DNA of 64,000 nucleotides from assembly GCF_023169885.1 (NCBI RefSeq), contig NZ_AP025516.1:1240001-1304000 (forward strand). Reading direction: 5' to 3'. The DNA is from Desulfofustis limnaeus (GTDB lineage: Bacteria > Desulfobacterota > Desulfobulbia > Desulfobulbales > Desulfocapsaceae). Shown here piece by piece: positions 7,972 through 53,706 of this stretch. Under the pieces are notes generated by a model, which saw only the letters and a list, made by a program, of their open reading frames with translations, ran no database searches and was not told where the DNA came from. Position 1 is the stretch's first letter. Every line of letters starts with the position of its first letter. Both the position numbers and the translations under genes were made by a program.

Positions 7972-8799
7972 GTGAGGTGGCGGATGGGGCGGAACCTGTT
8001 CAGCGCGATTGCTTGTGTACCGCTTCTTCTCGGCGTGTTGATCGGCACCGCTTCTGCGGTCGAACGAGTTGAGGAAGATACGGCGCCGGGGAAAATCGCC
8101 GTCGTCGAGCGGACCGGTGCAACCGTCCCGCTGGAAGCCGTTTTCCGTGATGAAAACGGTGACCCGGTAACGCTTGGCAGTCTGCTGGCGCGACCGACTA
8201 TCCTGCTGCCCATCTATTTCACCTGCCCGAACAGTTGCAGCACCAATCTGGCCAACCTCGCGGTGGCCCTGGACCGGATGAAACTGCGTCCCGGGATCGA
8301 TTACCGTGCCATCGCCTTGAGTTTTGACGAACGGGAGACCCCGGCGGTGGCACGCTCCGCCAAGGCCAATTATCTGCGTCTGCTCGGCGATGATTTTCCC
8401 GCGGACCAGTGGTTTTTTCTGACCGGAGACCGGCCTTCGATCGAGGCGGTGCTCGATGCCGTCGGCTTTTCTTTCAAGGCCCTGCCGGACGGTACCTTCA
8501 TCCACCCGTCGATGCTGGTGGTGCTGGCCGAGAGCGGCATGATCATCAAGTATGTGTACGGCACCTTCATCCCCGGAGATGTTGAACTGGCGGTGGCGGA
8601 GGCGGCCCAGGGCCGGCCGGCCACCTCGATCAAACGTTTTCTCGATTATTGTTTCAACTACCTGCCTACCCGCTCGGCGGCAGTTTTTACCAACGTCAAG
8701 CTGATCGTTCTCCTGCTGTTTGGGGCCGGCTTGGCCGTTTTTTTTGTGCTCTTCCTGAAAAACAGAAAATCTGGTGAGCCCCGTGACCACGCACCCTGA
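7972..8799 (+). CDS. SCO1/SenC-family copper chaperone, membrane anchored
   Basis: SCO proteins metallate and reduce the CuA site of cytochrome oxidase subunit II. The 275-residue protein has an N-terminal signal sequence or anchor, a thioredoxin-like fold with the copper site Cys85-Pro-Asn-Ser-Cys89 and His178 (FIHPSM), and a second membrane helix near the C-terminus (about 237-260). This C-terminal anchor is unusual for the family, which is normally anchored only at the N-terminus. The GTG at 7972 follows GGAGAAG; an ATG at 7984 is a possible alternative. Its end overlaps the subunit I start by 26 bases. Confidence 0.9.
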   Translation: MRWRMGRNLFSAIACVPLLLGVLIGTASAVERVEEDTAPGKIAVVERTGATVPLEAVFRDENGDPVTLGSLLARPTILLPIYFTCPNSCSTNLANLAVALDRMKLRPGIDYRAIALSFDERETPAVARSAKANYLRLLGDDFPADQWFFLTGDRPSIEAVLDAVGFSFKALPDGTFIHPSMLVVLAESGMIIKYVYGTFIPGDVELAVAEAAQGRPATSIKRFLDYCFNYLPTRSAAVFTNVKLIVLLLFGAGLAVFFVLFLKNRKSGEPRDHAP

Positions 8800-10456
8800 A
8801 TCCGGCGGAACGCCCGCCGCCGTACCATCTTTTTTTGAGGCCTCCTCTCCCCCGGGACAAACCGGGATCAAGGCCTGGCTGCTGACCCACGATCACAAGC
8901 GGCTGGCCCTGATGTATCTGTGGGCGGTATTCTTCTGGCTGGTGCTGGCCTTGCTGCTGGGTCTAGCGCTGCGCGTTGAGCTGATGTTCATCGGCGAAAC
9001 GATCATGCCGGCCGAGATCTACAACACCGTGTTCACCCTGCACGGGGTGATCATGATCTTTCTTTTCGTCATCCCGGCGATACCGGCCATCTTCGGCAAC
9101 TTTTTCCTACCCATCCAGATCGGTGCCGACGACGTGTTCTTCCCCCGCTTGAACCTGTTCTCCTGGTATCTGTATATGATCGGCGGGGCCTTTGCCATCG
9201 TCTCGCTGTTTACCGGCGACGGTTTTGCCGATACCGGCTGGACTTTTTACGTACCGTTCAGCGTGACCACCGAGACCAACGTTTCGCTGACCGTGACCGC
9301 CGCCTTTATCCTCGGTATGTCGTCCCTGCTGACCGGCCTCAACTTCGTCACCACCGTGCACCGGATGCGCGTGAAAAACATGGGCTGGATGCAGGTGCCG
9401 CTGTTCACCTGGTCGCTCTACGCCACCGCCTGGGTGCAGATCCTGGCCACACCGGTGGTCTCCATCACCCTGGTGCTGGTGGTGCTCGAGCGTTTCCTCA
9501 ACATCGGCCTGTTCGACCCCGATCGGGGCGGCGACCCGCTGCTCTATCAGCACCTGTTCTGGATGTATTCGCATCCGGCCGTCTATATCATGATCCTGCC
9601 GGGCATGGGGGTCATCTCCGAGATCATTCCGGTGTTCTCGCGCAAGGCCATCTTCGGCTACAAGGGTATCGTCGTCTCGTCGCTGGCGATCGCCATCGCC
9701 GGATCACTGGTCTGGGCCCACCACATGTACACGAGCGGCATGAGCGACGTGTCGGTCTTCGTCTTCTCGCTCTTGACCTTCATCGTCGCCATCCCCAGCG
9801 CCATCAAGGTATTTTCGTGGGTTTCCACCATGTACAAGGGCTCCATCCTGATGACGCCGCCGCTGCTGCTGGCCCTGATCTTCATCTACCTCTTTTCCGT
9901 CGGCGGCCTGACCGGTCTGGTATTGGGCGCCGCCGGCACCGACATTCACGTGCACGATACCCAGTTTGTCGTGGCCCATTTTCACTTCACCATGTTCGGC
10001 GGCACCGGCTTCGCCTTTTTCGCCGCCCTGCATTTCTGGTGGCCGAAGATGTTCGGCGTCATGTATCATTTCGGCCGGGCCTACCTGGGGGCGTCGCTGG
10101 CCGCCATCGGCTTCATCTTCCACTACGTGCCCATGTTCATCCTCGGCATGCAGGGTATGCCGAGGCGGTACTACGATTACCTACCCCAGTTCGAGACCGG
10201 CAATTTCCTCGCCGGCTTCGGCGGCTTCCTGCTGGTTTTCGGCATCATGCTGATGTTTGTCAACCTGTGGATGAGCCTGATCGACCGCTGGCGACAACCG
10301 GCCGAAGCCGATCCCTGGGGTGGCACGACGCTGGAGTGGGCGGTTCCGTCACCGCCGCCGGTGCATAATTTTCTTCAGGAGCCGCGGGTTCTCGACTATC
10401 CCTATGATTTCTCCGAAGTGCTGGCCAGAGCGGCGGCCAAGGACAAAAAGGACTGA
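8774..10456 (+). CDS. ctaD: Haem-copper oxygen reductase subunit I, type A2
   Basis: This is the catalytic subunit with about 12 membrane helices. The ligands are visible: low-spin haem His90 (TLHG) and His404, high-spin haem His402 (HDTQFVVAHFHF), and CuB His267, His316 and His317. Tyr271 is the cross-linked tyrosine. Helix VI reads YSHPAV (265-270), not GHPEV, which is the defining mark of the A2 subfamily, where a tyrosine replaces the glutamate of the D channel. Lys345 of the K channel is kept. The start is a GTG inside the SCO gene; another GTG three codons later is possible. It reduces O2 to water and pumps protons; whether the haems are a or o type cannot be read here. Confidence 0.97.
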   Translation: MSPVTTHPESGGTPAAVPSFFEASSPPGQTGIKAWLLTHDHKRLALMYLWAVFFWLVLALLLGLALRVELMFIGETIMPAEIYNTVFTLHGVIMIFLFVIPAIPAIFGNFFLPIQIGADDVFFPRLNLFSWYLYMIGGAFAIVSLFTGDGFADTGWTFYVPFSVTTETNVSLTVTAAFILGMSSLLTGLNFVTTVHRMRVKNMGWMQVPLFTWSLYATAWVQILATPVVSITLVLVVLERFLNIGLFDPDRGGDPLLYQHLFWMYSHPAVYIMILPGMGVISEIIPVFSRKAIFGYKGIVVSSLAIAIAGSLVWAHHMYTSGMSDVSVFVFSLLTFIVAIPSAIKVFSWVSTMYKGSILMTPPLLLALIFIYLFSVGGLTGLVLGAAGTDIHVHDTQFVVAHFHFTMFGGTGFAFFAALHFWWPKMFGVMYHFGRAYLGASLAAIGFIFHYVPMFILGMQGMPRRYYDYLPQFETGNFLAGFGGFLLVFGIMLMFVNLWMSLIDRWRQPAEADPWGGTTLEWAVPSPPPVHNFLQEPRVLDYPYDFSEVLARAAAKDKKD

Positions 10457-10459
10457 GCC

Positions 10460-11056
10460 ATGGAGCGTGCTGTCGATAAGACCGGAATCAAGATCGGCAT
10501 GTGGATCTTCCTCTACTCGGAGATCATCCTCTTTGGCGGCCTGTTCGTCCTCTATGCCGTCTACTTCCATAATTTCCCCGGAGATTTTGCCGTTGCCGGG
10601 GAGGAACTCAACCGCCTGTTCGGCACGCTCAACACCGTCGTGCTGCTGGTCAGCAGTTTTACCGTGGCCGCCTCGATTACCGCGGTACAGCGGCGCCGGA
10701 CCGGCCAGGCCGTCGGTCTGCTCCTGTTTTCCCTCGGTTGCGGGCTGGTCTTTCTGATCAACAAATATTTCGAATGGGGCGCCAAGTTCGAGCACGGGCT
10801 CTACCCGAACTCGGACAGGTTGTTTGAGGCCGATCCGGGCTTTGCCATTTTTTTCGGTTTGTACTACACCATTACCGGTCTGCACGGCCTGCATGTGATC
10901 ATCGGCATGGTGTTGTTGACGGTCTCGCTGGTCATGGTGCTCCGGGGGCGAGTCGACCACCAACGCTATGCGCTGCTGGAAAACAGCGGGCTCTATTGGC
11001 ATCTGGTGGATTTGATCTGGATTTACGTCTTTCCCCTGTTTTATCTGGTTCTGTAA
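10460..11056 (+). CDS. ctaE: Cytochrome oxidase subunit III
   Basis: The 198-residue membrane protein has five predicted helices, matching short bacterial subunit III or CyoC proteins rather than the seven-helix form. The final segments TGLHGLHVIIG and WHLVDLIWIYVFPLFYL are characteristic of the family. It begins three bases after the subunit I stop and is followed by the subunit IV gene. Subunit III stabilises the catalytic subunit and its proton entry; it binds no haem. Confidence 0.95.
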   Translation: MERAVDKTGIKIGMWIFLYSEIILFGGLFVLYAVYFHNFPGDFAVAGEELNRLFGTLNTVVLLVSSFTVAASITAVQRRRTGQAVGLLLFSLGCGLVFLINKYFEWGAKFEHGLYPNSDRLFEADPGFAIFFGLYYTITGLHGLHVIIGMVLLTVSLVMVLRGRVDHQRYALLENSGLYWHLVDLIWIYVFPLFYLVL

Positions 11057-11065
11057 GAGGGAGTG

Positions 11066-11356
11066 ATGATGGAAGAACAAGAACAGGCCCATCAGCTGAG
11101 CTATCGATTCCTGGCCCTGATATTGGGCGGTCTGCTGGCGCTGACCGGGGTCACGGTGGCCGTCTCCTATGTCGACTGGGGGTTTCTCAATGTGCCGATC
11201 AGCCTCTTTGTCGCCTCCAGCAAGGCCACGCTGGTACTGCTGTTTTTCATGCACATCAAATATGAGGGGATGGCGATCAAGGTGTCCTTTATCAGCACCG
11301 TGTTGTTTCTCGCCATCATGATCAGTTTCACGTTCTGGGACGTGGCGTTTCGCTAA
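11066..11356 (+). CDS. Cytochrome oxidase subunit IV family protein
   Basis: This is a small three-helix membrane protein of about 96 residues of the prokaryotic COX4 family. The helix SKATLVLLFFMHIKYE is the hallmark of this family. Starts at 11063 (GTG), 11066 and 11069 (both ATG) are all in frame behind AGAGGGAG; the ATGs are better spaced. It lies between subunits III and II, as is common in caa3- and A2-type operons. It probably stabilises the complex. Confidence 0.9.
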   Translation: MMEEQEQAHQLSYRFLALILGGLLALTGVTVAVSYVDWGFLNVPISLFVASSKATLVLLFFMHIKYEGMAIKVSFISTVLFLAIMISFTFWDVAFR

Positions 11357-11371
11357 AATCTGGAGAGAGCG

Positions 11372-11968
11372 GTGAACATGGATCCCGTCAGAGGCGTAGA
11401 CCTGGCATTCTGGTACATACTCGGTATCTCGATCATCATGTTGATCGGCATTACCGTAGTGATGATTGCCTTTGTCATCATCTACCGGCGCAGCCGCCAT
11501 CCAGTGCCGGTCGATATCCGGGACAACCTCAACCTCGAGGTGGTCTGGACGGTGCTGCCGACGCTGATCGCGCTGACCATGTTCTGGGTGGGCTGGCAAT
11601 CCTACCTGGGGTTGCGTCAGGTCCCCGATGATGCGCTCGAGATCGACGTGGCGGGACAGATGTTTTCCTGGATCTTCGTCTACCCCAACGATAAGGAAAC
11701 GGAAAACCTGCTGGTGGTGCCGCAGGGGCGTGCTGTCAAGTTGAACATCTCCTCCTGGGACGTGCTGCACAGCTTCTATATTCCGTCCTATCGGATCAAA
11801 GTAGACGCCGTCCGGGGCATGGATACGTATGCCTGGTTCTTTGCCGATAAGGCCGGCGAATACGATATCCTGTGCACCGAGTACTGCGGCCTCGGGCATG
11901 CCGAGATGTTGGCCAAGCTGCGCATTGTCCCGGAAGCCGAATACCTGAGCTGGCTCGAGGAAGAATGA
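11372..11968 (+). CDS. ctaC: Cytochrome oxidase subunit II with CuA site
   Basis: The 198-residue protein has two N-terminal membrane helices and a periplasmic cupredoxin domain. All CuA ligands are present: His133, Cys168, Glu170, Cys172, His176 and Met179 (CTEYCGLGHAEM). There is no C-terminal CxxCH domain, so unlike caa3 or cco-type subunits it carries no cytochrome c and needs a separate electron donor. GTG at 11372 and ATG at 11378 are both plausible behind GGAGAG. Placing subunit II last, after I-III-IV, is not the textbook order. Its stop overlaps the next ATG by one base. Confidence 0.96.
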   Translation: MNMDPVRGVDLAFWYILGISIIMLIGITVVMIAFVIIYRRSRHPVPVDIRDNLNLEVVWTVLPTLIALTMFWVGWQSYLGLRQVPDDALEIDVAGQMFSWIFVYPNDKETENLLVVPQGRAVKLNISSWDVLHSFYIPSYRIKVDAVRGMDTYAWFFADKAGEYDILCTEYCGLGHAEMLAKLRIVPEAEYLSWLEEE

Positions 11969-12876
11969 TGGAGCGCCGAGCGACAGCGCTGAGCACTTCG
12001 TCCGGATTGACCGGCGTAGCGCTGCTCGCTCGTTTGCTGCAGGTTGCCAAACTGCCCTTGTGCTCGGCGGTCGCTGCCTCGGCCCTGGTCGGCTTGGTGC
12101 TGGCCGGCGACCGATTGGACAGCCGGGCCGTCGCTCTTTTTTTCGCCGTGCTGCTGCTGGCTGGCGGTGCTGCGGCCCTCAACAACTGCCAGGACCAGGT
12201 CTATGACCGGTTCTTTGGACGCACCCGGGAGCGGCCGGTGGCCCGCGGCGACCTGCCGGTCTCCGTGGCTCTGGTGATGGCGGCCTTGCTCTTCGTTGCC
12301 GGTGCGGCGGTGCTGGTGGTGACCTCCCGCTCCCTGAGCCCGCTGCTGGTGTCGTTGCTGGTGGTGGTCCTGTACAACGGCATCTACACCAGGTTGAAAC
12401 AAAAGACCAGTTGGGCCTTGCTGCCGGGAGCGATCTGCGGGGCCTTGCCACCCCTGATCGGTTGGCTGGCCGGGGGCGGGGAGCAGGGCGGTTTTGGGCT
12501 GGTGCTGGTCATGGTTTTCATGGCCGTCTGGCAGGTACCGCACTTCTGGCTGGTACTGCTCGACCATCGCAACGATTACCGCCAGGCGCCCTATCCGAGC
12601 CTGGCCGACGAACTGTCTCTGCCGGCCTTGCATATGGTAACGTTTATCTGGGCGGCGGCCTTCATGTCTCTGGTTCATACCTTTTTTCTGGTCGAAAGAT
12701 CTTTGTCCTACGGGCTTGTCATGATCAACAGCATCAGCTCTCTGATTGTGCTGGCGGTGTTTGCCCGTGAATTGTTTTGTCGACGACTGCCGCGTTACCG
12801 CGTGCTGTTTCATGTGCATAACGGTTTTTTGTTGCTGCTGATGACTCTTGTTGTCACGGATAACCTGTGGCGGTAA
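11968..12876 (+). CDS. ctaB: Protohaem IX farnesyltransferase (haem O synthase)
   Basis: This UbiA-family prenyltransferase attaches a farnesyl group to haem B, making haem O for the oxidase. The 302-residue protein has about eight or nine membrane helices. The prenyl-diphosphate/Mg site is NNCQDQVYDRFFGRTRERP and the second family motif is WQVPHFWLVLLDHRNDY. The frame is open further upstream inside ctaC, but the ATG overlapping the ctaC stop is the natural coupled start. No haem A synthase (CtaA) is in the window, so a haem O-containing oxidase is possible. Confidence 0.95.
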   Translation: MERRATALSTSSGLTGVALLARLLQVAKLPLCSAVAASALVGLVLAGDRLDSRAVALFFAVLLLAGGAAALNNCQDQVYDRFFGRTRERPVARGDLPVSVALVMAALLFVAGAAVLVVTSRSLSPLLVSLLVVVLYNGIYTRLKQKTSWALLPGAICGALPPLIGWLAGGGEQGGFGLVLVMVFMAVWQVPHFWLVLLDHRNDYRQAPYPSLADELSLPALHMVTFIWAAAFMSLVHTFFLVERSLSYGLVMINSISSLIVLAVFARELFCRRLPRYRVLFHVHNGFLLLLMTLVVTDNLWR

Positions 12877-12935: not shown

Positions 12936-13094
12936 ATGGGTGGCAAGAAGAAGTGTTGCGGAAAATACGAGAAGAAAGGAAAGCATTGCGATGGGTGCCC
13001 GTTGCTCGGCGATAAGGACAAGTGCAAGGGCGACAAGAAGTATTGCAAGGACTGCAAGAACGGCACAAAAAAGACGAAGAAAAAGAAGAAATAA
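12936..13094 (+). CDS. Small Cys/Lys-rich protein of unknown function
   Basis: The 52-residue protein is very basic and holds seven cysteines: a CC pair, two CxxC pairs (HCDGC and YCKDC) and one single. It ends in a polylysine tail KKTKKKKK. GAGGG lies seven bases before the ATG at 12936. The spacing of the cysteines suggests metal or iron-sulfur binding, and the lysines suggest contact with nucleic acid or acidic partners; neither can be proved from sequence. It lies 59 bases after ctaB on the same strand and 26 bases before the selenoprotein gene. I do not recognise a named family. Confidence 0.7.
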   Translation: MGGKKKCCGKYEKKGKHCDGCPLLGDKDKCKGDKKYCKDCKNGTKKTKKKKK

Positions 13095-13120
13095 TTGGGT
13101 CAGGCGGGGAGGTGGCGGTG

Positions 13121-13477
13121 ATGGCGACGGTATCGTGGGCGTATCTGCGCAACGGTTGAGTGTCGTGCAAAAAGGCTCGGGAGGCCTTGCAGCACAAAGG
13201 GGCGAGCATCGAGGTGGTGGTCGATGCGAAGAAGAACGCTATCGGCGCGGAAGCTGCCTGGCAGCGTCTGGCGACAGCGGCAGAGGTGCATGTGGCCAGT
13301 GGCCGGAACGTCGTCAGTTATCGGCCCCAGCCGGATAACAAAGACGATCTGCTGAGCAAGGCGGTGGGGCGCAGCGGCAACCTCCGGGCCCCGACCCTCC
13401 TGGTTGGAGAGCACCTGCTTATCGGTTACAACGACGCCTTGTACGAACGGTTCTTGGAGAAACTCCGGAAATATTAA
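13121..13477 (+). CDS. ArsC-like selenoprotein (in-frame UGA at codon 13)
   Basis: Reading from ATG 13121, behind a strong GGGAGG site, the frame runs WAYLRNG-TGA-VSCKKA and continues to TAA at 13475-13477, giving 118 residues if TGA (13157-13159) is selenocysteine. That forms a Gly-Sec-x-x-Cys-Lys-Lys redox motif (Sec13, Cys16) in an ArsC/thioredoxin-like fold, and the C-terminal NLRAPTLLVG is the usual cis-proline segment. I know an ArsC-like family in which Cys and Sec forms occur at this site. A foldback suited to SelB starts directly after the UGA, and selB is present at 51775. Standard gene calling would start at GTG 13160 and lose the active site. A thiol or selenol oxidoreductase role is likely; the substrate is unknown, and arsenate reduction is not shown. 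Confidence 0.88.
13157..13195 (+). promoter_or_regulatory. Candidate bacterial SECIS element
   Basis: Right after the UGA, TGCAA (13166-13170) pairs with TTGCA (13187-13191) and GGC (13174-13176) with GCC (13184-13186), leaving an AAA bulge and a seven-base apical loop UCGGGAG. The loop starts 17 bases after the UGA and contains guanines, as bacterial SECIS loops do. The fold was drawn by eye. Confidence 0.6.
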
Positions 13478-14196
13478 CGGTCATGTGCCGGCCGACCCAC
13501 CGGGGAACTGGAGCCGGTGGCGTGGCCGGCGTCGGTGAGGACCAGACGGCGCACCAGTTCCTGGCCGATCGTGGCGCCACGATCGCGAATCGCCAGCAAT
13601 TGTTCCCGGGAATGACCGTGGTGGCGGTAATAGGTGCCGAGCACGGCCCGCCTTTCCGGGCGGCAGCCGGCTGCCTTGAGAAAAACGCCGATGGTGCTCC
13701 ACGGTTCGGGACTGGGGTGGCAGAAGATGATACTCTCGTCCACCGTGTCGGTAAAACGCCGCAACGAGCGGTTCAGGACCAGATTGTGCCACCGGTAATA
13801 GCCTCGGCAGGAAATGAGTGGCAGGACCCGGCGATCCGTGAAGAGGTCGTGACCGTAGCGGTCCAAAAGACTGAGAACGGGGCCGCTGGGGTTGTAGGAC
13901 CAGGTGGGGCCGGCCAGGACGATCAGGTCGTAGCCGGTGAAGCAGCAGCGACTCGGGGGCAGGATCGGCACCCGGGCTCGAAAAAAGGTTCGTAGCATCA
14001 TGATCAGGGTACGCAGGATGGATCCCAATGGAAAACCGATTTTTTCCTGGGGGCGGATCTGTTCGATTGTCACCGAAACGCCACGGCTGCGCAGGCCGGC
14101 CGCAAAAAGGTTGACCAGGCCGCGAGTCTGGCCGCTCAGGCTGAAGTAGAGGATAAGGACGCGAGGCTGGACGCTGGAGCGATACACGTTCGACAA
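13474..14196 (-). CDS. Flavodoxin-like NAD(P)H-dependent oxidoreductase family protein
   Basis: The protein of about 240 residues opens with VLILYFSLSGQTRGLV, a flavodoxin phosphate-binding loop for FMN. A second flavin-binding stretch is LAGPTWSYNPSGPVLSLLDR. The region after residue 140 is less typical and arginine-rich. The start is uncertain: the frame offers only TTG 14196, GTG 14187 or CTG 14202, and a GGAGG site lies too far upstream for any. The stop shares bases with that of the convergent selenoprotein gene (TTAA). Its partner and substrate are unknown. Confidence 0.7.
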   Translation of the reverse strand: MSNVYRSSVQPRVLILYFSLSGQTRGLVNLFAAGLRSRGVSVTIEQIRPQEKIGFPLGSILRTLIMMLRTFFRARVPILPPSRCCFTGYDLIVLAGPTWSYNPSGPVLSLLDRYGHDLFTDRRVLPLISCRGYYRWHNLVLNRSLRRFTDTVDESIIFCHPSPEPWSTIGVFLKAAGCRPERRAVLGTYYRHHGHSREQLLAIRDRGATIGQELVRRLVLTDAGHATGSSSPVGRPAHDR

Positions 14197-14730: not shown

Positions 14731-16137
14731 TCACCGTCCTTCCGCCGCTCGTCTGATGATCTCTTTTGCCGGGATCAGCGCGGTGGCCGTCGCCGAGACG
14801 ATGTTGCCAGCGACGCCGGGACCGTCCCCGGCCATGAACAGCCCGTTGATGACGGTTTCCAGATGGTTGTCCGTCTCCACCTGGGTCGCGAAGAATTTGA
14901 TTTCCGGGGCGTAGAGCATGGTCTCGTCGTTGGCGACACCGGGAACCACCTGGTTCAATTGCTCCAGGCCGTCGATGATATTGGAGAGGATCCGCTCCGG
15001 CAGGGCCATGGCGATATCGCCGCAGGTCACGTTCTTCAACGTTGGATCGATATAGGAGTTACGGATACGATTCCAGGTTGAGCGCCGGCCCCGTTTCAGG
15101 TCTCCGTAGCGCTGCAGGATTGGCTTGCCGCCGCCGATCAGGGTGGCCAGTCTGCCGATGGACTCACCGTAGGCCTGGTTGTCCTCCACCGGGTCGGTGA
15201 GCACCACCTTGGAGAGAAAAGCGAAGTTGCTGTTGTCGCTCTTGCGGTCGGTGTAGGCGTGGCCGTTGACGCAGACGAAATGCTGGTAGTTCTCGAGGGC
15301 GACAAAGCCGCCGAAGTTGGTGCAGAAGGTGCGGGTCTGGTCGTCGTAACGGCTGGTCCTGATGAAGAAGGTCGGGTCGTAGATGACCGAGCAGAGATCC
15401 TGCATGATCTCGTTGTGCACCTCGACCCTGACGCCCACCTCGATACCGCGCTGGGAAACGGGGATACCGTTTTTGCGGGCCACGCCGCCAATCCATTCGG
15501 CACCGACCCGGCCGGGCGCCATGATGATGCACGGTGTCCGGTAGGTGGCTTGATCGGTGACCAGTCCGGTTACTGCCCCGTTTTCGACGATGATGTCCTG
15601 CGCCTCTTCCAGGTGGTGAAAGACCACGCCCCGGGAACCGATATAATCGGCCATGGCGGCGATATGGCCGGGCAGGTTGTCGCTGCCCAGGTGCTTCTGT
15701 TTGATGAGCAGCAGGTCGATGCCCTGCTTGCGCGCCTCCAGCCTGATCCGATGGGCCTTGTCCTGATCGGTGGGGAAGACCGGCCCGTCCATGCCGAAGC
15801 GGTTGAAGATCGCTTCGGTCTCGTCGATCAGGGCCTTGGCCGCCGATTCCGGCAGGAACTGGGTCAAATCGGTCTTGCCCAGTTTATGAATGAAATTGAG
15901 CTTGCCGTCGGAAAACAACCCGGCCCCGCCGATTCCGCACAGGATATTGCACGGCTGACAGTGGATACACCCCGAGTCCTTGATCGGGCAACGACGGTTG
16001 CGTGGCGATCGTCCTTTGTCGATGACCAGCACCCTGAGGCTGGAGTGCTCGGCCAGGTAAAAGGCGCCGAACAGGCCGGCCGGGCCGCCGCCGACGATGA
16101 CCACGTCAAAGGAGCGTGCTGGAGTAAAATGAGTCAT
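14731..16137 (-). CDS. FAD-dependent dehydrogenase of the COG2509 type
   Basis: The 468-residue flavoprotein has the N-terminal dinucleotide fold VVIVGGGPAGLFGAFYLAE and a C-terminal FAD-ribityl motif GLFMAGDGPGVAGNIVSA. A cysteine cluster at about 49-68 (RRCPIKDSGCIHCQPCNILC) could bind an iron-sulfur cluster or support thiol chemistry. The block GGAGLFSDGKLN follows, as in uncharacterised proteins of this group. The reaction is unknown in the family. The gene lies 37 bases after recA on the same strand but is probably functionally separate. The ATG has only a weak GAGGAA site about 14 bases upstream. Confidence 0.82.
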   Translation of the reverse strand: MTHFTPARSFDVVIVGGGPAGLFGAFYLAEHSSLRVLVIDKGRSPRNRRCPIKDSGCIHCQPCNILCGIGGAGLFSDGKLNFIHKLGKTDLTQFLPESAAKALIDETEAIFNRFGMDGPVFPTDQDKAHRIRLEARKQGIDLLLIKQKHLGSDNLPGHIAAMADYIGSRGVVFHHLEEAQDIIVENGAVTGLVTDQATYRTPCIIMAPGRVGAEWIGGVARKNGIPVSQRGIEVGVRVEVHNEIMQDLCSVIYDPTFFIRTSRYDDQTRTFCTNFGGFVALENYQHFVCVNGHAYTDRKSDNSNFAFLSKVVLTDPVEDNQAYGESIGRLATLIGGGKPILQRYGDLKRGRRSTWNRIRNSYIDPTLKNVTCGDIAMALPERILSNIIDGLEQLNQVVPGVANDETMLYAPEIKFFATQVETDNHLETVINGLFMAGDGPGVAGNIVSATATALIPAKEIIRRAAEGR

Positions 16138-16174: not shown

Positions 16175-17206
16175 TCAGGCGGTCTTTTCGGCGGGTGCCT
16201 CTTGGTTGACGGTCAGGCCGTAACCGAGTCGTACCTTGTTTTCGATGTCCCGGCACATCTCCGGGTGGTCCACCAGGAATTGTTTGGCGTTTTCCCGGCC
16301 CTGGCCGATCCGTTCGTCCTGATAGGAATACCAGGCGCCGCTCTTGTCGACGATTTCCTGTTCGACCGCCAGATCGAGGATGTCACCCTCCCGGGAGATG
16401 CCCTCGCCATAAATGATATCGAACTCGCAATTTTTGAACGGCGGGGCGACCTTGTTTTTGACGACCTTCACCTTGGTGCGGTTGCCGATCACCTCCTGGC
16501 CGTCTTTGATCTGGTTCACCTTGCGGATATCGAGCCGTATGGAAGAATAGAATTTTAAGGCGTTACCGCCGGTGGTGGTCTCCGGGTTGCCGAACATGAC
16601 GCCGATCTTCATGCGGATCTGGTTGATAAATACGAGGATGCAGCGGCTCCGGTTGAGCACCCCGGTGAACTTGCGCATGGCATGCGACATCAGTCGGGCC
16701 TGCAGCCCCACATGGGCGTCGCCGACGTTGCCGTCGATCTCGGCGCGGGGTACCAGGGCCGCCACCGAATCGATGACGATGATGTCCACTCCGTTGGAGC
16801 GGATCAGGATCTCGGCGATCTCCAGGGCCTGTTCGCCGAAATCGGGTTGGGACACGAGCAGGTTGTCGATGTCTACCCCGAGGCGTTGGGCATAGCTGGT
16901 GTCCAGGGCGTGCTCAGCGTCGATGAAGGCGGCGGTTCCACCCCGTTTCTGCACTTCAGCGATGGCATGCAGGGCCAGGGTGGTCTTGCCGCTTGATTCC
17001 GGACCATAGATCTCGGTGACCCGGCCCCGCGGCAGCCCGCCGACACCAAGAGCAATATCGAGGCTGAGTGATCCGGTGGGGACGGCCGGCACTTCTTCCG
17101 TCTCCCGTGATCCGAGCCGCATGATCGATCCTTTGCCAAACTGCCGCTGGATCTGACTGAGGGCGTTTTCGACACTGCTCTGCTTGTTTTTGCTATCGTT
17201 GGACAT
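16175..17206 (-). CDS. recA: Recombinase RecA
   Basis: This is the DNA strand-exchange ATPase for homologous repair and the SOS co-protease. The 343-residue protein has Walker [10 protein letters not shown] near residue 69, Walker [13 protein letters not shown] and the loop-2 region [16 protein letters not shown]. The length is standard and the C-terminus is short and acidic to neutral. GGGAGTG lies six bases before the ATG. It follows cinA on the same strand after 112 bases, the conserved cinA-recA arrangement, and appears to have its own promoter in that gap. Confidence 0.99.
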
Positions 17207-22443: not shown

Positions 22444-22624
22444 TCGTTGTGCGCAATACCTACGGATGCTGGCGTTTCGGCCTGTTCATCGGCGCAATGA
22501 GGCCGGCAGACAGGCCATCCATGGCCTGACCGCCGGTGGCGGACATCCTGTCCGCCACCCTTCGGGCCTTGTTCAATGCGCCGATGGGCCTTCACGATGC
22601 ATCCTCCGGTATTGCGTACAACGA
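22444..22624. repeat. 181-bp palindromic element with nested hairpins
   Basis: The outer arms 22444-22469 and 22599-22624 are inverted repeats matching at 22 of 26 positions. Inside are a second pair, 22488-22500 with 22573-22585 (12 of 13), and two perfect hairpins: 22511-22518 with 22521-22528, and 22535-22545 with 22549-22559. There is no open frame. The layout resembles a miniature inverted-repeat (MITE/REP-like) element or a multi-branched RNA. No second copy was noticed in this window. Confidence 0.6.
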
Positions 22625-51774: not shown

Positions 51775-53706
51775 ATGCGCGAAATTGTCCTCGGCACCGC
51801 CGGCCATGTGGATCATGGTAAAACCAGCTTTATCCGGGCATTGACCGGTATCGAGACGGACCGGCTCAAGGAGGAGAAGAAACGGGGCATCACCATCGAA
51901 CTCGGTTTCGCCTATCTCGACCTCCCCTGCGGACATCGTCTCGGCATCGTCGACGTGCCCGGCCATGAGCGGTTTGTCAAGAACATGGTGGCCGGTGCCA
52001 CCGGCATGGATCTCCTGGCTTTCGTCATCGCCGCGGACGAGGGGATCATGCCGCAGACCAGGGAGCACTTCGACATCTGCCGGCTGCTCGGCGTCAAACA
52101 GGGGTTCGTGGTGGTCACCAAGAAAGACTTGGTGGACGAGGACTGGCTGGAGATGGTGATTGAGGAGATCGGTGAGTTCTGCCGGGGCAGCTTCCTGGAA
52201 GATGCCCCGGTCATCCCGGTGTCGTCGGTCACCGGCGAGGGGCTCGACCAGGTGGTGGCGATTGTCGACCGTTTCGTCCGCGAGCACCAGTTCAGTGAGG
52301 CCTTCGGCCCGTTCCGGCTGCCCATCGATCGCGCCTTTGCCATGAAGGGCTTCGGGGCGGTGGTCACCGGCACCTCGGTGTCGGGGCGGGTGGCGGTGGG
52401 TGATGAGGTCCGCCTCTATCCCGGTGACAAGCAGGCCAAGGTGCGCGGTATCCAGGTTCACTCCCAGGCGGTGGAGTTGGTCGAGGCCGGTCATCGGACG
52501 GCCATCAACCTGCAGGGCACGGAACTGGACGAGATCTCGCGCGGCATGGTGCTGGCTTCCCCCGGATGCCTCGAGTCCAACTACATGCTCGATTGCTGGC
52601 TGCTTTATCTGTCGTCCAACGCCAAGCCGCTGAAGCATCGCAGTCGGGTTCGGGTCCATCTGGGCACCGCCGAGGTGATCGGTCGGGTCTCGTTGCTGGC
52701 TGGTGATGAGGTGCGGCCCGGCGACGAAATGCCGGTGCAACTGCTGCTCGAAGAGCCGGTGGCGGTCTGGCCCGGCGACCGTTACGTCATTCGCAGCTAC
52801 TCGCCGGTGGCCACCGTCGGCGGCGGCGAGGTACTGGGCAACCAGTCGCCGCGCAAACGCAAGCGGTTGACCGCCAAGGATCGTGACCTCAACCGGGCGG
52901 TATTCAACGTGCTGCGCGACGGCTCGGTGGAAGAGCGACTGCTGCTGCTGCTCAAGGAATCGGGAATGACCGGGCTCTCCTTCGATGAACTCGGGGTTCG
53001 GCTGGGTGTCTTCGGCAAGCAGCTCACCAAGCTGCTCGGGCCGCTGCTGTCCGCCAGGCGCATGGTGGTGGTCGACTCGGCGGCGCAGCGCTACCTGATC
53101 AGGGAGATGGCCGACCAGCTCAACGAGACCATTCTCGTTTCGCTGACCGCCTATCACCAGGCCAATCCCTTGAAAAACGGACTGTCCAAGGAAGAGGTCC
53201 GCTCCGGTTTCAAACAGGCGGTGGACCCGAAGGTGTTCAATTACTGCCTCAACGACCTGCTGCGCCGGGAACTGGTGGTCCAGGAGGAATCGGTGATCAG
53301 ACTGGCCTCTCACCAGGTGGCCTTGCAGGGCGACGAACAGCAACTGCGCCAGGAACTGCAGGACTGGTACCGGCAGCGCGGCCTGATGACGCCCACCATC
53401 AAAGAGACCTATGAGCGGTTCGGCGACTACCCGCAGACGATGGTCAAAAACGTGCTCAACCTCCTGCTTGGCGACGGCACCCTGCTCAAGGTGAGCGAGT
53501 CGCTCTACTATGATGCGGCCCAGTTGCAGGGTCTGCAGCGAAAGGTCGAGGCCCATCTGCAGGAGCATGGGGAGATCGACGCCCCCGGCTTCAAGGACCT
53601 CAGCGGCCTGACCAGAAAGTTCTCCATTCCGATCCTGGAATATCTCGATCGGGTCAAACTGACCATCCGCATCGGTGATAAGCGCGTCCTGCGCAAACGA
53701 ACCTGA
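51775..53706 (+). CDS. selB: Selenocysteine-specific elongation factor
   Basis: SelB delivers selenocysteyl-tRNA(Sec) to ribosomes at UGA codons followed by a SECIS hairpin. The 643-residue protein has the EF-Tu-like G domain ([32 protein letters not shown]), two beta-barrel domains and a C-terminal set of winged helices (about 400-643) that bind SECIS RNA. It implies that at least one selenoprotein is made; the ArsC-like gene at 13121 is one target. No selA, selC or selD is in the window. Confidence 0.97.

Follow-up and report, generated by a model that had tools for sequence, protein, structure and literature searches.

The reading frame at positions 13121-13477 of the Desulfofustis limnaeus DNA analysed here (a 64,000-nucleotide stretch of contig NZ_AP025516.1, hereafter the window) is, as judged from its sequence and that of its relatives, a real selenoprotein gene belonging to an already catalogued family, NCBIfam NF041106. 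Its product is very probably a selenocysteine-containing member of this ArsC/Spx-like thioredoxin-fold family, in which the UGA would be read with SelB and a hairpin and in which Sec13 and Cys16 would act together in redox chemistry. The frame contains a single TGA; with this codon taken as selenocysteine it gives a translation of 118 residues with the motif N-G-U-V-S-C-K-K, in which Sec13-V-S-Cys16 constitutes a UxxC pair. Mechanical ORF calling, by contrast, yields only GTG 13160-13477 (105 aa). All of this agrees with a preliminary description of the window, which had proposed the same frame, length and Sec13, a ribosome-binding site of its own, a Gly-UGA-x-x-Cys-Lys-Lys motif, and a default start at GTG 13160 that loses the active site. 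The positions of the gene and of the features which bear on its interpretation are collected in Table 1.

Table 1. Features of the window that relate to the selenoprotein gene and its surroundings.
Feature	Position	Strand	Remarks
ArsC-like selenoprotein gene (NF041106)	13121-13477	+	118 residues and stop; Sec at residue 13
In-frame UGA (TGA), putatively read as selenocysteine; UxxC with Cys16	13157-13159	+	Relatives: UGA in 125/128, Cys in 3/128
Ribosome-binding site GGGGAGG	13106-13112	+	8 nt 5' of ATG 13121; direct sequence reading
Candidate bacterial SECIS hairpin	13165-13195	+	Loop CGGGA at 13178-13182; weak alone; comparative evidence
selB, selenocysteine-specific elongation factor	51775-53706	+	TIGR00475, 365.1 bits (cut-off 242.25)
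Cytochrome oxidase genes coxA, coxC, coxD, coxB and a ctaB-like gene (context)	8774-12876	+	Best profile matches
52-aa Cys/Lys-rich ORF with CC...CxxCP and a Lys tail (context)	12936-13094	+	Homologues in 14/128 loci (E <= 1e-5)

The product scores 110.7 bits against NF041106 (ArsC_rel_Se_1, "ArsC family (seleno)protein"; cut-off 85), residues 4-108 aligning to positions 1-107 of the 107 in the model, which is to say the whole profile. The defining trait of the family, Sec or Cys as the first residue of a U/CxxC pair, is present as the UGA at residue 13. Profile searches of the product with Pfam ArsC (PF03960; 14.3 bits, gathering cut-off 24) and with the Pfam Glutaredoxin model (20.3 bits) remained under the respective cut-offs. 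In the table of a 2026 review NF041106 is listed as "Arsenate reductase-like protein, UxxC" (PMC13188914), and the window protein shares with it both the whole-profile match and the UxxC motif. The Global Ocean Sampling selenoproteome of 2008 contains an entry "Arsenate reductase 2" (cd03032, UxxC, 42 sequences; PMC2398784), and ArsC-like selenoproteins are also given in a 2006 paper (PMC1794560). Based on motif and domain we infer that "Arsenate reductase 2" is the NF041106 family; the ArsC-type domain with UxxC is common to both, while the sequences of that survey entry are ocean-metagenomic. On account of the NCBIfam model and of these three literature entries the family is counted here as known. 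With an NCBIfam model in existence, the word hidden used in the preliminary description is only partly apt. The arsenate reductase selenoproteins reported with UxxS (PMC1088965) likewise have Sec in an ArsC-type protein, but the window protein has UxxC, and the UxxS type occupies a separate row in the review table. No published function for the NF041106 family was found in the literature searched. Within the family the window protein is divergent: its end branch measures 0.74, and no relative in the tree is more than 51% identical to it.

The conservation of the gene was analysed in the 60 genomes of the window's taxonomic family (its own included) and in 395 genomes of the phylum, two samples which partly overlap. 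In the taxonomic family 49 genomes have an NF041106 match, 47 of them above the cut-off, and each of the 49 matches carries one in-frame TGA. In the phylum 28 genomes exceed the cut-off and all 28 genes have one TGA; of eight further sub-threshold matches, five have one TGA and three have none. From G005, the other Desulfofustis species listed, no match was obtained. A scan of named genome contigs confirmed at least 575 stretches, and the best 80 of these, which were kept, include contigs labelled Chloroflexi/Anaerolineales, Poribacteria, Calditrichaeota and SAR324; the resulting sample of relatives leans to near relatives. After removal of duplicates it comprised 128 distinct relatives, the window gene itself standing outside the count. 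It left out one sequence without a match to the motif (L145) and four weak ones unmatched at E 1e-5 (L221-L224), and one gene that ends at a contig edge (L087) was excluded from the folding, codon and tree analyses. Three of the four weak sequences (L222, L223 and L224) come from one family of the same phylum and are sub-threshold NF041106 matches whose open frames, 103-104 aa long, each contain one TGA in frame, perhaps a second subfamily; L221, from the same family, has no in-frame TGA.

The preliminary description had looked to relatives for a Cys at position 13 and for conserved sequence upstream of the UGA, and both expectations were borne out. All 128 relatives have Sec or Cys at the equivalent position (Table 1), and the pair is completed by Cys in 125 of them and by Ser in three. 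The surroundings of the UGA are conserved, and in most cases an ATG stands 11 codons before it. In the tree the Cys genes lie in a five-row clade (support 99/88) alongside two Sec genes; two changes are needed and one is possible. Because of this placement Cys looks to be derived from Sec in this family.

A SECIS-like foldback had also been proposed, and a hairpin is indeed present behind the UGA. Taken alone, that of the window is weak: its stability is -13.8 kcal/mol (z = -1.69, 12 of 200 shuffled sequences being as stable), and among 39 other 42-nt stretches taken from this gene, 12 reach the stability of the stretch which contains it. Across the family the 42 nt after the UGA are more stable than the gene's own mean in 108 of 125 UGA genes, but the same holds for each of the three Cys genes, so that stability by itself lacks specificity. 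The most or second most stable stretch sits behind the UGA in just 23 of the 125 genes. A hairpin scan found a hairpin behind the UGA in 122/125 genes versus 97% of control stretches; only the loop G and the codon bias therefore carry weight. A G within the first two loop bases occurs in 102/125 genes as against 49% of controls. At codon +8 the third base is G in 98 of 118 genes (44.8 expected), and where this codon specifies Glu it is GAG in 58 of 60 cases, compared with 424/843 further downstream in the same genes (p = 1.5e-14, a value that overstates the case, as +8 was picked among 15 positions and the genes are related). Codons +2, +4, +6, +10 and +11 depart from expectation too. At +7 a final G is favoured by Arg (p 0.002) and Gly (p 0.0003), and Gln shows no bias (44/65 vs 188/277, p 1.0). 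The window gene reads CGG GAG at +7/+8; Glu also occupies +8 in two of the three Cys genes, encoded by GAA in both. RNAalifold returned no single consensus fold for the UGA genes or for three groups of them divided by codon +7. In the group that includes the window gene (48 genes), a helix closes at +18/+24 around a 5-nt loop, with pairing frequencies of 96, 90, 100 and 92%. The clearest sign of a functional element is that synonymous choice after the UGA appears to be constrained as expected for a bacterial SECIS; this family-wide constraint is strong.

With respect to the decoding machinery, selB lies in the same window, as had been pointed out (Table 1). The genome further contains a tRNA-Sec (72.5 bits, anticodon tca) and two selD genes (L225 and L226) with one in-frame TGA each, and SelD may itself be a selenoprotein twice over. 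The preliminary description had named absence of selA, selC or selD from the genome as evidence against a selenoprotein. The tRNA and SelD are there; for selA, TIGR00474 gave no match in the genome and PF03841 a single one of 19.4 bits, under its cut-off, but the expected site reads as N. The next gene after selA is there, and the N begin on its 5' side, where selA would sit. In the taxonomic family selA is above the cut-off in 45/60 genomes, that of the same genus (G005) included, it adjoins 16S rRNA in three of eight scanned selA loci (L239, L250 and L256), and long N runs occur in two of 30 such loci; two complete genomes (G013 and G045) likewise gave no selA match. As the syntenic place consists of N and 45 of the 60 genomes have the gene, the missing selA carries no weight, and we rejected it as a refutation. 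It should be noted that Desulfosediminicola ganghwensis and D. flagellatus have 40 and 43 known selenoprotein genes, respectively, according to our reading of a table column (PMC12013277).

An AlphaFold2 model of the product (mean pLDDT 94) has a fold of the Spx/ArsC/glutaredoxin type and places Sec13-x-x-Cys16 where the first helix begins. The protein is most likely a thioredoxin-fold selenol redoxin with a Sec-Cys pair. SelB and Sec-tRNA would read the UGA as selenocysteine, aided by the hairpin behind it, a step for which conservation among the relatives provides the backing. Sec13 would attack an oxidised substrate such as a peroxide, a disulfide, a persulfide or some other oxidised group. 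In most members of the family Sec13 would then form a selenenylsulfide with Cys16, to be reduced by a cellular thiol system. From the neighbours found in part of the family one might guess that the protein serves in oxidant, sulfur or iron defence.

Among the genes directly downstream on the same strand, within at most 250 bases, a member of the rhodanese-rubrerythrin cluster is found in 23 of the 128 loci, bioF in 13, comM in 10 and NFACT in seven; directly upstream, by the same definition, are ferritin (15), an FAD-dependent oxidoreductase (12), parC (8) and ctaB (4). The bioF-, comM-, parC- and NFACT-like genes occupy these places in other lineages. A ferritin, a rhodanese-rubrerythrin fusion or AhpC/TSA is present within 3 kb in 47/128 loci. 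These are raw counts from mostly related genomes, without a background control; the rhodanese-rubrerythrin, ferritin, FAD and AhpC/TSA names come from the Pfam domains of one representative per cluster, and we named bioF, comM, NFACT and parC from the sequences ourselves. Among 26 loci with a rhodanese-rubrerythrin cluster member, 23 show an overlap of the start of that gene with the stop of the ArsC-like gene, an arrangement of Desulfocapsa-type genomes; the other three (L044, L130 and L163) have no such gene directly downstream. The active-site residue of the rhodanese (VYxHSGVRS or VYxRSG) is Cys in 15 of the 23 and encoded by UGA in eight (L042, L045, L049, L121, L123, L127, L133 and L147), which places two selenoprotein genes next to each other. 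The 2026 review (PMC13188914) also lists rhodanese-like selenoproteins of the UxxG type. One could suppose a redox partnership between the ArsC-like selenoprotein and the rhodanese-rubrerythrin protein, the two making up a two-selenoprotein module for the removal of persulfide or peroxide. The genome of the window has two full-length rhodanese-rubrerythrin homologues elsewhere, both without inner stops, and here they would have to act unlinked and with a Cys rhodanese. We regard this partnership as unlikely.

On the opposite strand an ORF (13474-14196, -) that looks flavodoxin-like by eye overlaps the end of the selenoprotein gene; it has relatives in six loci and no Pfam match at 1e-4. Elsewhere in the window there are a TwoAYGGAY RNA (22457-22611, -; Rfam RF01731, 44.5 bits, gathering 43) and a gene resembling the ExtM cytochrome of selenite/tellurite reduction (31855-33711, +; 294.2 bits, under the cut-off of 800).

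The comparison with proteins of solved structure bears on two more specific functions. Foldseek gave four matches with E < 0.001, all of them Spx structures with moderate TM-scores (0.51-0.55). In VIA-align Spx 3ihq came first (Z 9.1, rmsd 2.6, 88 residues aligned), nearly tied in Z with YffB 1rw1 (Z 8.2, rmsd 4.4, 94 aligned), arsenate reductase 3f0i (Z 8.0, rmsd 2.6, 90 aligned), which stands ahead of some Spx rows, and NrdH 1h75 (Z 7.9, rmsd 2.6, 76 aligned). By sequence profile search Spx is likewise first among the solved relatives, represented by five sequences (E 2.7e-5 to 3.8e-5). In the alignment with Spx of Bacillus subtilis the CxxC of Spx corresponds to the UxxC of the window protein, which has Sec in place of the first Cys, and the LRRP motif corresponds to LRAP, R89 matching an arginine of LRRP. 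A selenium Spx-type regulator, in which Sec-x-x-Cys would be a redox switch on RNA polymerase, would account for this resemblance. In the same comparison, although the alignment is weak there, Spx residues 49-52 fall on a gap in the NF041106 family; among them is Gly52, which in Spx is part of the contact with the C-terminal domain of the RNA polymerase alpha subunit (PMC2801614). Together with the near tie of the other three folds this makes such a regulator improbable in our view.

Even less credence can be given to a true arsenate reductase with Sec as its catalytic residue. The name of the family and the presence of ArsC-family folds such as 3f0i in the structural lists speak for it; against it are the Pfam ArsC score below the cut-off, a best "arsenate reductase" entry at only E 0.56 in the sequence search in which Spx reached 2.7e-5, and the UxxC motif, since UxxS is what has been reported for selenoproteins of the arsenate reductase type. 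The term ArsC-like, used in the preliminary description, holds as the name of a family and a fold, but in sequence Spx proteins, and not arsenate reductases, come closest among those of solved structure.

The preliminary description had further drawn a redox setting from the oxidase operon and the small Cys/Lys-rich gene upstream. In that operon coxB and the subunit IV gene score above their cut-offs, and the matches of coxA, coxC and ctaB are below theirs. The position of the selenoprotein gene directly behind the operon, shared by the window and related genomes, might suggest a maturation factor of a caa3-type oxidase which supplies thiol reductant to the copper site. However, oxidase genes are near the selenoprotein gene in at least 23 of the 128 loci (a lower bound, given the many short contigs), the 23 all falling within the 35-row clade to which the window gene belongs, and elsewhere the selenoprotein gene is kept without them. 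The ORFs downstream (14731-16137 and 16175-17206) are also syntenic, which makes position alone weak evidence. Oxidase partnership was consequently rejected as a general explanation, and a maturation factor has, we believe, very little probability. The 52-aa ORF, which has no Pfam match, travels mostly with the oxidase: 12 of its 14 homologues stand beside oxidase genes and most selenoprotein loci lack it. Its product may be a metal-binding protein with a connection to the oxidase.

Finally, an ordinary ORF starting at GTG 13160 behind an accidental stop or decayed codon, which is what mechanical ORF calling returns and in favour of which the non-significant hairpin of this one sequence can be cited, is practically discounted by the conservation across relatives of the first 12 residues and the UGA, by the usual ATG upstream, and by the codon bias behind the UGA.

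A redox-active selenoprotein of a known family thus being the preferred reading, the finding is mainly a matter of annotation: a call from GTG 13160 drops the first 13 residues of a conserved family, the active-site Sec included. NF041106 is widespread among the genomes of the window's taxonomic family, sparse over the phylum, and also present in contigs labelled as other phyla. In Desulfocapsa-type genomes the gene overlap with a fusion that in part itself contains UGA offers a testable hint at the function of the family.
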